Source: Eunapius fragilis (taxonomy: Eukaryota > Porifera > Demospongiae > Spongillida > Spongillidae). Taken from it: a stretch of DNA of 64,000 nucleotides. The DNA lies in contig OY811987.1 in assembly GCA_963681505.1 (NCBI GenBank), positions 2,552,604-2,616,603 of the forward strand, in the 5' to 3' direction. A program made the translations under genes and the position numbers. Of the stretch, positions 1 to 59,822 are shown in pieces (the first letter of the stretch is position 1; each line of letters starts with the position of its first letter). The notes beneath the pieces were generated by a model. That model made no database searches, was not told the origin of the DNA, and worked only from the letters and a program-made list of their open reading frames with translations.

Positions 1-21925
<21,925 letters not shown>

Positions 21926-24660: not shown

Positions 24661-27600
24661 CCCAAGATGGAAGAATTGACTGGAACACACTTGGAAACAC
24701 ACTAACTGCTGCTCTTCTTGGAGAGGTACCAAACATTAGTGTGCTGTACGATATTCTAATTAATGAGCACTTTAAACAGGTTTTACAGGTATCGTATTTG
24801 GATGCAAAACATGCTGCAAAGAAGGGGAAAGAGGCGATACTAACTGATTGGTGGTAAGGCGACAGTACTGGTCATTTAGCATAGCCACATACATGTACTA
24901 ACTGATCAGAGCACTAGTCATCCATCATAGCCACATACTAACTGATCAGAGCACTGGTCATCCATCATAACCACATACTAACTGATCAGAGCACTGGTCA
25001 TCCATCATAGCCACGTACTAACTGATCAGAGCACTGGTCATCCATCATAGCCACGTACTAACTGATCAGAGCACTGGTCATCCATCATAGCCACATACTA
25101 ACTGATCAGAGCACTGGTCATCCATCATAGCCACGTATTAACTGATCAGAGCACTGGTCATCCATCATAGCCACATACTAACTGATCAGAGCACTGGTCA
25201 TCCATCATAGCCACGTACTAACTGATCAGAGCACTGGTCATCCATCATAGCCACGTACTAACTGATCAGAGCACTGGTCATCCATCATAGCCACGTGCTA
25301 ACTGATCAGAGCACTGGTCATCCATCATAGCCACATACTAACTGATTAGAGCACTGGTCATCCATCATAACCACATACTAACTGATCAGAGCACTGGTCA
25401 TCCATCATAGCCACATACTAACTGATTAGAGCACTGGTCATCCATCATAACCACGTACTAACTGATTAGAGCACTGGTCATCCATCATAGCCACGTACTA
25501 ACTGATTAGAGCACTGGTCATCCATCATAGCCACGTACTAACTGATTAGAGCACTAGTCATCCATCATAGCCACGTACTAACTGATTAGAGCACTGGTCA
25601 TCCATCATAGCCACGTACTAACTGATCAGAGCACTGGTCATCCATCATAGCCACATACTAACTGATCAGAGCACTGGTCATCCATCATAGCCACATACTA
25701 ACTGATCAGAGCACTGGTCATCCATCACAGCCACGTACTAACTGATCAGAGCACTGGTCATCCATCATAGCCACGTACTAACTGATCAGAGCACTGGTCA
25801 TCCATCATAGCCACGTACTAACTGATCAGAGCACTGGTCATCCATCATAGCCACGTACTAACTGATCAGAGCACTGGTCATCCATCATAACCACGTACTA
25901 ACTGATCAGAGCACTGGTCATCCATCATAGCCACATACTAACTGATCAGAGCACTGGTCATCCATCATAGCCACGTACTAACTGATCAGAGCACTGGTCA
26001 TCCATCATAGCCACGTACTAACTGATCAGAGCACTGGTCATCCATCATAGCCACGTACTAACTGATCAGAGCACTGGTCATCCATCATAGCCACGTACTA
26101 ACTGATCAGAGCACTGGTCATCCATCACAGCCACATACTAACTGATCAGAGCACTGGTCATTTAGCGTAGTTGTGTTTTATATAGTCTTTAAATGTTTTG
26201 TATAGCTAACCATTGTTTGGGTGAATCTGAATGTTGTGTTCAGTAACTTACATTGCATCACTTAGCAAGCGATATGGAAACAGTTTATCTTTCAGGGCCA
26301 AAGTGCGGGTAAAAGTAAAATTGACATAACTTTAAATTTAGTTACAGTTTCGAAGAAAATAACGTAGCAGTGTTCACAAAGAAGCCAGAGGACACGAATT
26401 TGTGTTGGTGAGTTTGTGTGCAATCAGTAGTGGTGTGTTTATGGTGTTTACATATTTGCATGTGCGTGTATGTGTGTGTGCATGTGCATGTGTGTGTGTG
26501 TGGGTGTATGTGTGTATGTGTGTGTGTCTCACTTCACAATTCCTGTTATAATGCAGTGGCAACTCCTGGCTTATTGACTACATGTAGAGTGTTACATTCT
26601 TGTACGTACACGCCACAAACTATTATAGAATTATAATTATATAATTATTGTATATAAATATGGGACAGTGTCCAGCAAAATCTTCATGTGACTCCTCTCC
26701 ACCCCTCACCCTCCCATATCTCCACCTTCATGTGACTCCCCTCACCTTCCCATATCTCCACCTTCATGTGACTCCCTCACCCTCCCATATCTTCACCTTC
26801 ATGTGACTCCCTCACCCTTCCCATATCTCCACCTTCATGTGACTCCCCTCACCCTCCCATATCTCCACCTTCATGTGACTCCCTCACCCTTCCCATATCT
26901 CCACCATCATGTCACTCCCATCCACCCTCACCCTCCCATATCTCCACCTTCATGTGACTCCCCTCCACCTCACCCTCCCATATCTCCACCTTCATGTGAC
27001 TCCCTCCACCCCTCACCCTCTCATGTCTCCACCTTCATGTTACTCCTTCCACCCCTCACCCTCTCATATCTTCACCTTCATGTGACTCCCCTCCACCCTC
27101 ACCCTCCCATATCTCCACCATCATGTGACTCCCCTCCACCCCTCACACCTTTATGTGACTCCCCTCCACCCTCACCCTCCCATATCTCCACCTTCATGTG
27201 ACACACCCCTCACCCTCCCATATCTCACCTCCTCTAGCTTCATGGGACGTGGTGTCATTGATCTCCCTATAGCTGAAGTGGCAGAGTTCCTTGCCGTTCA
27301 GCACGGACTCTTTATTGACAGCAAGAATGTCCTTGTAAGTAAAAAAGTAACGTGCCTTTGTTTTTCACCTGGATGGGACCGCTTGCTCCATTTTGGTATA
27401 TGTGTGATTGAATAATACTGTAAAGTATCACGTATAAATATAAGCTCCTCCCCTGCCCCGTCCACTCCACCTTCATTGAATAAAAAAGCTTGTATTCAAA
27501 TGATTGTAACTGCTTCCAAATTTTTACTACATTTCGTAAAATGGCATTCCCACATGATGTAGAGTCATGCAGAATCATTCACAGTTATGTAGATATGCTG

Positions 27601-30302
27601 CACATTTAAACACGAGCCTTTTTTTGATGGGGTGGGGTTGGGAGGGGGAGGGGGGGGGGGAGATGGCGGGTGGCCTTATATACGGTACTTTATGCAATTA
27701 ACCTTCCTATGTGACTGGTAACCCCAGCAGAAGAGAAGTGTATAATGACATGGATCCAGAATAGAGTTCTGGAGCGTACTTGAGATGGATTGCACCATGC
27801 TGGCTTCGGCCTGCCTGTAGTTGTGATGCAGCGGTGCCATGGCTACCATTGTAGCCACTAACATGCGTAGAAGGGAAACGTGCCACTCCAAAAAAAAAAA
27901 AAAAAAGATTTTTTTGGTGCATATACATGTAGCTGTCACTCATCTATCATATGGCCTTTGATTGTGCCCCACCCCTTGTAGTCTGCAAAGTATGTACGTT
28001 CCATTGTGAACACCCAGAAGAAGAAAGATCTTATAGGTGAGCCCGTTAGAGGTCAAAGGTCGCACGGGCCACTGGGTGGAGCAGTGCATGCATTTCAGCA
28101 CCACATATGTTTGTTGGTGCTGTTCTTTGCTATTATTAGAACACGGGAGGATATGGGTCATGGGGTGGTAATCCAAGGGAGGATATGGGTCATGTGGGAG
28201 TAATCCAAGGGAGGATATGGGTCATGTGATGGTAATCTAAGGGAGGATATGGGTCATGTGATGGTAATCCAAGGGAGGATATGGGTCATGTGATGGTAAT
28301 CCAAGGGAGGATATGGGTCATGTGGGGGTAATCCAAGGGAGGATATGGGTCATGTGATGGTAATCCAAGGGAGGATATGGGTCATGTGATGGTAATCCAA
28401 GGGAGGATATGGGTCATGTGATGGTAATCCAAGGGAGGATATGAGTCATGTGATGGTAATCCATGGGAGGATATGGGTCATGTGATGGTAATCCACATTT
28501 TGCACCTCTTTTAGAATGTGTTTTACCAGTTATTTTGTTGAGTACTAAGCTACATGTTACCATGTTGATCCCCATCCAGGGTACCTTCTGCTGCGGCAGA
28601 AAATCTGGTTCCTGCAAGGCACTGGGGACCTGTGCTACTATTGCAGGAAAGTGTTCATGGTAAAGCCGCACCTTGAGTGTATAGTTTGTGCCAATCGTAC
28701 GGCAATGTTACAGGAAGATGGGAAGTTTGTCGTAACTGTTATGTCTGTGGACTGTCCCGAGTGCCCTCAAATCCCTAACGTGTCCAGATTTAAGGTCTGT
28801 AAAGGTGTGCAAGTGTGTGCCTGTGAGTGTTCTTGTGTAGTACATTTCATGGCTTTGTACAAATGATGTCACCACCATAGGGGTATGAGGGCGCCATACC
28901 CTGCATAGGGCTATGAGGGCACCATACCCTGCATAGGGCTATGAGGGCACCATACCCTGCATAGGGCTATGAGGGCACCATACCCTGCATAGGGCTATGA
29001 GGGCACCATACCCTGCATAGGGCTATGAGGGCACCATACCCTGCATAGGGCTATGAGGGCACCATACCCTGCATAGGGCTATGAGGGCGCCATACCCTGC
29101 ATAGGGCTATGAGGGCGCCATACCCTGCATAGGGCTATGAGGGCACCATACCCTGCATAGGGCTATGAGGGCACCATACCCTGCATAGGGCTATGAGGGC
29201 ACCATACCCTGCATAGGGCTATGAGGGCACCATACCCTGCATAGGGCTATGAGGGCACCATACCCTGCATAGGGCTATGAGGGCACCATACCCTGCATAG
29301 GGCTATGGGGGCACCATACCCTGCATAGGGCCATGGGGGCACCATACCCTGCATAGGGCTATGAGGGCACCATACCCTGCATAGGGCTATGAGGGCACCA
29401 TACCCTGCATAGGGCTATGAGGGCACCATACCCTGCATAGGGCTATGAGGGCACCATACCCTGCATAGGGCTATGAGGGCACCATACCCTGCATAGGGCC
29501 ATGAGGGCACCATACCCTGCATAGGGCTATGAGGGCACCATACCCTCCATAGGGCTATGAGGGCACCATACGCTGTATAGGGCTATGGGGACGCCATACC
29601 CTGCATAGGGCTATGAGGGCACCATACCCTGCATAGGGCTATGAGGGCACCATACCCTGCATAGGGCTATGGGGGCACCATACCCTGCATAGGGCTATGG
29701 GGGCACCATACCCTGCATAGGGCTATGAATGGTGCTCTCTTGCTAGTGTGCTTCATATGGCTGCTTACACATCTCTACAGGTTCTCAAAGGATCTGGATG
29801 GGTCCTTGAGCCTTACAATGGAGATCAGTCCAAGACGTTGGTCAGCTATGCGATGCATGTGAGTGTAGCTGCCTATCTTCCATCTTTGAGCGTACACAGT
29901 CTGTGTTTAGGTGCCAATCTTGCTTTACATGTACCAGCCTACATATGATATAAATGCCATTAACTAAATAGATTAGCTGACATGGGTTGTTGCTTTTAAA
30001 TAATAATTTACTTGGTAATGGAATTCGTATCATCGACTGCCCTTTTGTTGATAACCTTGGCAAGTGTGAACTTAATACCACTACGTCATTCACATATGCT
30101 AAATCTAATCGGTAATGAACACACACCATTTCCTTGTCTTTTATAGATATGTAGTACCAAGATCTAAGTCTTACGCATGTTTAATTGAAATGCTTTGGTA
30201 GTAAATATTCCCGTGTGGTAAATTCATTAACCATTAATGATACACAACATTGCACATACACACATAACAACACACACACACATACACACATGCACACACA
30301 CA

Positions 30303-33164: not shown

Positions 33165-36859
<3,695 letters not shown>

Positions 36860-42734: not shown

Positions 42735-45395
42735 ACTAGCAACGTGACACACATGTATGCCATGATCACACTGTTCCTCAGATTAGCAAGAGGGCACCAC
42801 TGTGATATAGTTCCTCAGATTACCAATGTGACATACATGTATGCCACGATCATACTGTTCCTCAGATTAGCAAGAGGCCACTACTGTGATACAGTTCCTC
42901 AGATTAGCAACGTGATACACATGTATGCCATGATCATACTGTTCCTCAGATTAGCAAGAGGGCACCACTGTGATACTGTTCCTCAGATTAGCAACGTGAT
43001 ACACATGTATGCCATGATCATACTGTTCCTCAGATTAGCAAGAGGGCACCACTGTGATACTGTTCCTCGGATTAGCAACGTGACACACATGTATGCCATG
43101 ATCATACTGTTCCTCAGATTAGCAAGAGGGCACCACTGTGATATAGTTCCTCAGATTACCAATGTGACATACATGTATGCCATGATCATACTGTTCCTCA
43201 GATTAGCAAGAGGCCACCACTGTGATACTGTTCCTCAGATTAGCAGCGTGATACACATGTATGCCATGATAACACTATTCCTCAGATTAGCAAGAGGCCA
43301 CCACTGTGATACTGCTCCTCAGATTAGCAATATGATACACATGTATGCCATGATAACACTGTTCCTCAGATTAGCAAGAGGGCACCACTGTGATACTGCT
43401 CCTCAGATTAGCAACGTGATACACATGTATGCCATGATAACACTGTTCCTCAGATTAGCAAGAGGGCACCACTGTGATACTGTTCCTCAGATTAGCAACG
43501 TGATACACATGTGATAACACTGTTCCTCAGATTAGCCAGAGGCCACGACTGTGATACTGTTCCTCGGATTAGCAATATGATACACATGTATGCCATGATC
43601 ATACTGTTCCTTAGATTAGCAAGAGGCCACCACTGTGATACTGTTCCTCAGATTAGCAACGTGATACACATGTATGCTATGATAACACTGTTCCTCAGAT
43701 TAGCAAGAGGCCACCACTGTGATACTGCTCCTCAGATTAGCAATATGATACACATGTATGCCATGATAACACTGTTCCTCAGATTAGCAAGAGGGCACCA
43801 CAGTGATACAGTTCCTCGGATTAGCAATGTGACACACATGTATGCCATGATAACACTGTTCCTCAGATTAGTGTAATGCGAGGCGTGGCTTCCGCAGACG
43901 AGGGTGACAAGTGCAATCATAATTATTCCGCATGCACGTACACAAGGTTTTTATACAAGGAGTGCAGAACACTGCGCAAGCGCAGCAATACACGACAAAT
44001 GGAGTCCATTACATTAGCAAGAGGGCACCACTGTGATACTGTTCCTCAGATTAGCAATATGATACACATGTATACCATGATAACATTGTTCCTCAGATTA
44101 GCAAGAGGGCACCACTGTGATACTGTTCCTCGGATTAGCAACGCGACACACATGCATGCCATGATCACACTGTTCCTCCACGGAACAGTGTGATCATGGC
44201 ATACATGTGTGTCACGTTGCTAATCTGAGGAACTGTATCACAGTAGTGCCCTCTTGCAAATCTGAGGAACAATATGATCATTGCATACATGTGTGTCACG
44301 TTGCTAATCCGAGGAACTGTATCACAGTGGGGCCCTCTTGCAAATCTGAGGAACAGTATGATCATGGCATACATGTGTATCACGTTGCTAATCCGAGGAA
44401 CTGTATCACAGTGGTGCCCTCTTGGTAATCTGAGGAGCAGTATGATCATGGCATACATGTATGTCACATTGGTAATCTGAGGAACAGTATCACAGTGGTG
44501 CCCTCTTGCTAATCTGAGGAACAGTGTGATCATGGCATACATGTGTGTCATGTTGCTAATCCGAGGAACTGTATCACAGTGGTGCCCTCTTGCCAATCTG
44601 AGGAACAGTATGATCATGGCATGCATGTGTATCACGTTGCTAATCCGAGGAACAGTATCACAGTGGTGCCCTCTTGCTAATCTGAGGAACAGTATGATCA
44701 TGGCATACATGTGTATCATATTGCTAATCTGAGGAGCAGTATCACAGTGGTGCCCTCTTGCTAATCTGAGGAACAGTGTTATCATGGCATACATGTGTAT
44801 CATATTGCCAATCTGAGGAACAGTATCACAGTGGTGCCCTCTTGCCAATCTGAGGAACAGTATAATCATGGCATACATGTGTATCACGTTGCTAATCTGA
44901 GGAACAGTATCACAGTGGTGCCCTCTTGCTAATCTGAAGAACAGTGTTATCATGGCATACATGTGTATCATATTGCTAATCTGAGGAACAGTTCACAGTG
45001 ATGCCCTCTTGCTAATCTGAGGAACAGTGTTATCATGGCATACATGTGTATCATATTGCTAATCTGAGGAGCAGTATCACAGTGGTGCCCTCTTGCTAAT
45101 CTGAGGAACTGTATGATCATGGCATACATGTATGTCACATTGGTAATTTGAGGAACTATATCACAGTGGTGCCCTCTTGCCAATCTGAGGAACAGTATGA
45201 TCATGGCATACATGTGTGTCACGTTGCTAATCCGAGGAACAGTATCACAGTGGTGCCCTCTTGCTAATCTGAGGAACAGTGTGATCATGGTATACATGTG
45301 TATCACGTTACTAATCTGAGGAACTGTGATACAGTTTCTCAGATTACCAATGTGATACACATGCAGGCCTTGATCACACTGTTCCTCAGATTAGC
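42735..45395. repeat. palindromic 84-bp minisatellite, inverted at about 44179
   Basis: About 17 units run one way (42735-44176) and about 14 the other (44182-45395). The unit alternates CTGTTCCTCAGATTAGCAAG plus AGGGCACCACTGTGATA with GTTCCTCAGATTAGCAACGT plus GATACACATGTATGCCATGA. At the centre GCCATGATCACACTGTTCC, a 5-base spacer and GGAACAGTGTGATCATGGC form a perfect hairpin. Frames of up to about 300 codons arise because 84 is a multiple of three; these are not genes. Confidence 0.95.
43872..44013. mobile_element. 142-bp MITE inside the palindromic array, TTAG target duplication
   Basis: The array motif CAGATTAGCAAG is interrupted after TTAG (43868-43871) by a non-repeat segment beginning TGTAATG and ending CATTACA. 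It is followed by a second TTAG (44014-44017) and resumption of the array. Terminal repeats are only 7 bp. The superfamily is unknown; a 4-bp duplication is the only clue. Confidence 0.8.
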
Positions 45396-59292: not shown

Positions 59293-59466
59293 TATGTATG
59301 TATGTAATGTATGTATGTATGTATGTATGTATGTATGTATGTATGTATGTATGTATGTATGTATGTATGTATGTATGTATGTATGATGTATGTATGTATG
59401 TATGTATGTATGTATGTATGTATGTATGTATGTATGTATGTATGTATGTATGTATGTATGTATGTA

Positions 59467-59497
<31 letters not shown>

Positions 59498-59822
59498 ATG
59501 TATGTATGTATGTATGTATGTATGTATGTATGTATGTATGTATGTATGTATGTATGTATGTATGTATGTATGTATGTATGTATGTATGTATGTATGTATG
59601 TATGTATGTATGTATGTATGTATGTATGTATGTATGTATGTATGTATGTATGTATGTATGTATGTATGTATGTATGTATGTATGTATGTATGTATGTATG
59701 TATGTATGTATGTATGTATGTATGTATGTACGTATGTACGTATGTACGTACGTACGTACGTACGTACGTATGTACGTACGTACGTACGTACGTACGTACG
59801 TACGTACGTACGTACGTACGTC
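59293..59822. repeat. (TATG)n / (TACG)n tetranucleotide array, about 530 bp
   Basis: A long ATGT run with a short GT patch (59468-59486), turning into ACGT repeats after 59730. Open frames (MYVCMYVC... and THIHTYIH...) are repeat artefacts. Confidence 0.97.

Follow-up and report, generated by a model that had tools for sequence, protein, structure and literature searches.

A window of 64,000 nucleotides (the whole stretch of DNA analysed, C17:2552604-2616603) from the 219-Mb genome of the sponge Eunapius fragilis, which is contained in 24 contigs, raises the question of whether intronic minisatellites arise at splice junctions by a mechanism of their own. A reading of this window from its letters had described four arrays in three unrelated genes as starting at splice junctions, and had asked whether they share a mechanism, the pattern being one not known to be described.

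Two arrays in a START-like gene

Two of the four arrays lie in one gene, the relevant features of which are listed below.

24726..24853, + strand: predicted START-like coding exon (ab initio chain; by eye open in frame back to ~24661)
24838..24894, + strand: first unit copy of the 40-bp array, diverged and extending over the exon end, the donor GTG/GTAAGG and the intron start (intron from 24854)
24895-26161, + strand: 40-bp minisatellite, START_A (TRF; 31.7 copies, 97% matches)
26348-26407, + strand: predicted 60-nt exon (FEENNVAVFTKKPEDTNLC; ab initio only), with phases that fit both neighbours
26702-27230, + strand: 36-43-bp pyrimidine-rich minisatellite, START_B (TRF; 13.7 copies), stopping 7 nt short of the intron end
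27238..27334, + strand: exon after START_B, the first 11 nt of which (CTTCATGGGAC) carry on the array unit (sequence and ab initio chain)
28145..28495, + strand: 32-bp array (TRF) in another intron of this gene, no junction copy seen
28876..29728, + strand: 28-bp array (TRF) in yet another intron of this gene, no junction copy seen

The gene had been labelled START, a name that is used here only in the form START-like: comparison with the Pfam START family yielded E=0.0046-0.0087, below the family cut-off, and for the longer START-like protein no Pfam family was found at E<=0.01 and no START structure at E<=1. TRF calls and in-register alignment bear out that the 40-bp array starts with a diverged copy of an exon end and that the 36-bp array runs into the start of the next exon. 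However, the two arrays had been taken to flank one intron, and the predicted exon at 26348-26407, which the sequence-only reading had missed, would place them in separate introns (24854-26347 and 26408-27237).

The end of exon 24726..24853 provides ATACTAACTGAT to the 40-bp array. Across the junction (slash), the sequence from exon into intron is ATACTAACTGAT(TGGTG/GTAAGGCGA)CAG.ACTGGTCAT..CATAGCCACAT, which represents an in-register copy of the unit except for the 14-bp block in parentheses. These 14 extra bases of the edge copy carry the donor and are absent from later units, and no copy of the donor 10-mer (at most one mismatch) was found in this intron. The motif ACTAACTGAT, previously given as the exon end, is located near the end but not at it, as TGGTG follows before the donor. 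Furthermore, GGTCATTTAGC (with TTTAGC) occurs twice, in the upstream edge copy and in the final one, whereas inner units have CCATCA in its place and 27 copies read GGTCATCCATCATA. This difference between edge and inner copies is a usual signature of array growth, the 27 copies sharing a derived form.

At START_B, the array end reads CCATATCTCAC(CTCCTCTAG)/CTTCATGGGAC, compared with a unit of CCATATCTCCACCTTCATGTGAC. The START_B units are without the 9-bp CTCCTCTAG acceptor block, and no near copy of the acceptor site was found in the intron; in both arrays of the gene, the splice site has thus been lost from the unit that was amplified. The START matches, at 11-13 nt, might be put down to chance, and that of START_B is indeed short: a single mismatch separates the array from the first 11 nt of the exon, a fit equalled by none of the 67 other exon starts but by 10 of 4760 exon 11-mers, those of its own exon among them. 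Against coincidence, both START matches are in register with the flanking unit copies, and the last 30 nt of the START_A exon score 13 against their own intron, above all 75 other exon ends. Chance is consequently considered a highly improbable explanation.

Straddling arrays in other genes and their frequency

The remaining two arrays described in the window were located as follows.

36263..36487, + strand: 49-bp array in an HSD17B12-like gene, HSD_4 (TRF), with a unit in which the donor is preceded by the final 23 nt of exon 36220-36285 and followed by 24 nt of the intron
10613..11315, - strand: 33-bp array in NEMF, NEMF_3 (TRF), ending in the acceptor and the first 5 nt of exon 10555-10617

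Both arrays were shown to straddle a junction with the splice site kept, although the exon overlap of the NEMF array amounts to only 5 nt. HSD_4 contains four inner donor copies that score equal to the real donor. NEMF_3 contains 19 inner acceptor copies, and entry from the nearest of these leads to an in-frame TAG after ten residues. The NEMF protein is matched in the structure library at E=6.8e-47, with no Pfam family at E<=0.01. The HSD17B12-like protein matches adh_short (Pfam; E=3.6e-19), with no solved structure at E<=1e-8; this supports membership of the short-chain dehydrogenase family only, the name HSD17B12 being that of the sequence-only reading.

Other repeats were observed in the same window. 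Two 84-bp arrays of ~1.1 kb each are positioned head to head at 42737-45324, the consensus of 44182-45324 resembling the reverse complement of 42737-43871 (by eye). Another inverted pair of arrays is found at 3674-4614, where a 38-80-bp repeat (3674-3840) and a 42-bp array (3836-4614) are near reverse complements (by eye), and identical predicted peptides on opposite strands at 1512-1709 and 7714-7911 suggest that a large palindrome has its centre near 4.7 kb. At 59293-59818, TRF calls a (TATG) microsatellite with 131.5 units.

The frequency of straddling arrays was assessed in a sample of 76 introns of conserved genes rather than the whole genome: 52 from myosin and CCT genes, eight from kinesins and 16 from the window. 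Outside the window, junctions were placed by protein homology and introns were retained at a score >=7, |insertion-gap| <=5, donor >=2.5 and acceptor >=-1, failures, among them three of the 11 kinesin introns, being dropped. The 52 comprise 46 introns from myosin and CCT loci and six from a later batch of CCT-family and myosin loci; this batch held eight introns, from which two near-copies in L055 were dropped, and its six were filtered without a script, passing by their printed scores. One intron of L052 (2337) was re-placed to 2309 after alignment with CCT-eta. For the 16 introns of the window, manual placement relied on ab initio exon predictions, with NEMF introns 2-5 backed by structure-library alignment and the START_E donor position set by eye. 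Arrays were counted as TRF calls with period >=10 and score >=50. A hmmscan of whole frames of three 10-kb stretches, with stops as X, returned a single weak or stray match each, probably owing to short exons.

L055 was left out of the sample as a near copy of L054. These loci and L056 represent three CCT-family copies on contig C2; L054 and L055, which lie ~62 kb from each other, agree at 95% over 1.67 kb, and L056 is 90-95% alike in its longest matched stretches. Comparison of the three yielded no array history.

At least one array was present in 40 of the 76 introns, and arrays account for 11,631 of 29,292 intron bases (~40%), compared with 2.3% of ten 10-kb stretches at preset positions (L041-L050). 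In five 10-kb myosin loci (L036-L040), arrays of period >=10 make up 21.8% of the sequence, against the same 2.3%, the exception being L039 (50 bp array).

A straddling array was identified in eight of the 76 introns, namely START_A, START_B, HSD_4 and NEMF_3 in the window and L040:1311, L052:1476, L052:2309 and L059:1583 outside it. TRF alone called five of these, while START_A, START_B and L052:1476 were found by alignment or by eye. The claim that arrays derive from splice-junction sequence therefore holds and extends to other parts of the genome (L040, L052 twice and L059). With respect to the features of amphioxus mirages (see below), unit sequence stems from both sides of the boundary in all eight cases (with 5 exon nt each in NEMF_3 and L059), and both 5' and 3' boundaries are duplicated, five cases being donor-side and three acceptor-side. 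AG/GT is kept in many but not all copies: the splice site recurs in register in five of the eight, and no in-register copy was found in START_A, START_B or L052:2309. In the five straddlers with an in-register site, use of an inner copy would cause a frame shift or a stop (offsets and the NEMF_3 stop were computed, the other stops read by eye). The exon part looks longer in some donor-side straddlers (23 and 27 nt) than on the acceptor side (11, 5 and 5 nt in the three cases), although there are too few cases for a judgement.

In 5 of 76 cases, the final 30 nt of the exon outscored every other exon end as a match to its own downstream intron, compared with interior exon controls recurring in their own intron in 0 of 76 (donor-side) and 1 of 76 (acceptor-side). 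The same 30-nt test on exon starts picked out only two of 76, at low scores of 9.0 and 9.5; as none of the eight straddlers was among them, it showed no true case.

The direction of copying may be approached through the exon parts themselves. Exon edges could have been recruited from arrays, by intron gain or by extension of an exon into a minisatellite, as is proposed for amphioxus globin introns in the part of that report used here (PMC3087553) and as is suggested by boundary repeats that form novel introns in human segmental-duplication genes, according to the portion consulted (PMC2812944). In the CCT-eta and NEMF cases, however, the exon parts fall on residues conserved in solved relatives, which, for those two genes, points to copying from exon to intron. 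We regard the reverse direction as very unlikely, and exon-to-intron copying may be presumed for the other genes.

Placement of arrays relative to splice junctions

The sequence-only reading had called for a comparison of array edges with shuffled positions. When arrays were shuffled wholly inside introns, edges within 15 nt of a junction were two-fold in excess (20 of 56 blocks against 10.3 expected; reached in 0 of 4000 shuffles), in line with earlier runs of this kind (13 of 42 against 5.4; outside the window, 15 of 41 against 7.8). This doubling is what would be expected if splice junctions were true hotspots, at which splicing- or transcription-linked breaks, for instance R-loops over G-rich donor-side sequence, start duplications. 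The contained shuffle, however, forbids straddling, whereas the model preferred here lets the outermost unit reach into the exon. Once straddling was allowed, the total excess disappeared, with 20 near-junction edges (<=15 nt) observed and 17.9 expected across the 76 introns (P=0.29). Straddlers were, if anything, too few: five called by TRF against 9.0 in the straddling-allowed simulation (P(<=obs)=0.075). Array density times unit length predicts 7.2 for the same five, in support of even seeding. In the 60 introns outside the window, 17 of 48 near edges compared with 14.5 expected (P=0.22), and three straddlers with 6.9 (P(<=obs)=0.054).

An excess persisted in one class of edges, those at -5 to +15 nt, with 15 observed and 9.0 expected in the 76 introns (P=0.02) and 14 against 7.6 outside the window (P=0.009). 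This class favours a hotspot, as do the four straddlers in the window where 1.0 was expected, a count from a stretch picked after the fact, where the pattern was first noticed. Conversely, array cover shows no peak at junctions in the 76 introns. It falls from 41-44% at 60-120 nt to ~10% at 5-15 nt and ~5% at 0-5 nt, and inside the exon it is 2.6-3.9% at 0-5 nt and 0 at 30-60 nt. Neither straddlers nor near edges in total thus exceed even seeding, although edges at -5 to +15 nt do, and junction hotspots are judged unlikely. Near-junction edges thus fit even seeding in total, but relative to it more of them lie just inside the junction and fewer arrays reach across.

The surplus at -5 to +15 nt, together with the shortage of straddlers, suggests either selection against straddling or additional seeding from splice-signal sequence. 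Arrays might grow from low-complexity splice signals (the GT-/G-rich donor flank and the polypyrimidine tract), with exon matches as a side effect. Consistent with such an origin, purine content drops from 0.58 on the donor side through 0.44 to 0.35 on the acceptor side (P=0.005; 68-intron set before the L052 re-placement), and the class in excess comprises many edges 0-15 nt inside the intron without exon sequence. Since donor-side units are purine-rich and acceptor-side units pyrimidine-rich, the excess inside junctions may come from splice signals as well as from selection. The units of HSD_4, L052:1476 and START_A, on the other hand, carry 12-27 nt of coding sequence that is not low-complexity, and splice signals are accordingly viewed as a possible, though rather doubtful, source of the arrays as a whole.

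The broad agreement with even seeding leads us to favour, as the probable explanation, a dense and roughly even seeding of minisatellites in introns and across their edges, with straddling copies hidden by splicing at the outer junction. Tandem duplications would be seeded at about even density along introns and across their edges; those wholly in exons would be removed and those in introns would persist. A straddling duplication would remain hidden from the mRNA while splicing uses the outer junction (first donor or last acceptor), leaving the original exon intact, all copies inside the intron and the protein unchanged, so that the array would presumably be neutral. Turnover of repeat units, by slippage or unequal exchange, may then amplify inner copies and leave edge copies behind. 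The resulting array would look as if it started or ended at the exon, its edge copy being exon sequence under coding constraint. More speculatively, the birth of minisatellites may be coupled to transcribed introns, given the ~40% cover of sampled introns against 2.3% at the preset positions. Straddlers would then mark the visible margin of a process duplicating intron DNA, splice junctions included, and selection would remove many of them and leave edges just inside the junction; we offer this only as a tentative extension.

The arrays are thus real, junction-derived, recurrent and of a known kind, and there is no clear evidence for a special junction mechanism, the shared mechanism originally proposed being unneeded for most of the pattern.

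Boundary minisatellites in other genomes

The view that the pattern had not been described does not stand. Minisatellite-like tandem duplications of exon-intron boundaries, termed mirages, are reported in the Adh3, globin and TnC genes of amphioxus, and similar but imperfect ones in PGBD5, in the sections consulted of two studies (PMC3087553, PMC3902484). As described there, mirage units measure 10-72 bp in Adh3 and ~150-160 bp in globins, the copies seem not to disturb splicing, not all of them keep AG/GT, and the edges of clusters escape homogenisation (PMC3087553, PMC3902484). In the text examined of a study of amphioxus huntingtin (PMC2206037), tandem repeats are mentioned and no boundary repeats appear. 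A literature search limited to one paper collection found no genome-wide treatment of boundary minisatellites, and a search in it for sponge-genome papers found nothing.

As far as the consulted accounts of mirages go, the sponge arrays resemble them in that units span a 5' or 3' intron boundary, the splice dinucleotides survive in many copies though not in all, and edge copies escape homogenisation. The likeness is one of sequence features only; unlike the amphioxus work, the present analysis concerns a 219-Mb genome, lancelet genomes being about twice as large, and it measures how frequent such arrays are (8 of 76 introns) and compares them with even seeding. Human segmental-duplication genes, according to the portion of the report consulted, contain variable internal tandem repeats with ~30-bp units, some at exon-intron boundaries (PMC2812944). 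Those repeats alter exon/intron structure and create novel introns (PMC2812944), whereas the sponge repeats would be spliced out whole.

Exon-edge minisatellites look like evidence of a special mechanism, but their number here is about what dense, even seeding of introns would yield with straddlers hidden by splicing. Arrays with up to 19 acceptor or four donor copies also represent natural tests of how the splicing machinery chooses the outer site. Tandem duplication has reportedly been proposed to generate splice structure; in contrast, no intron gain is shown here, and the CCT-eta and NEMF junctions lie in conserved stretches of protein. Even seeding with hidden straddlers provides a simple null model for mirages, and likewise where intron gain is attributed to tandem duplication.
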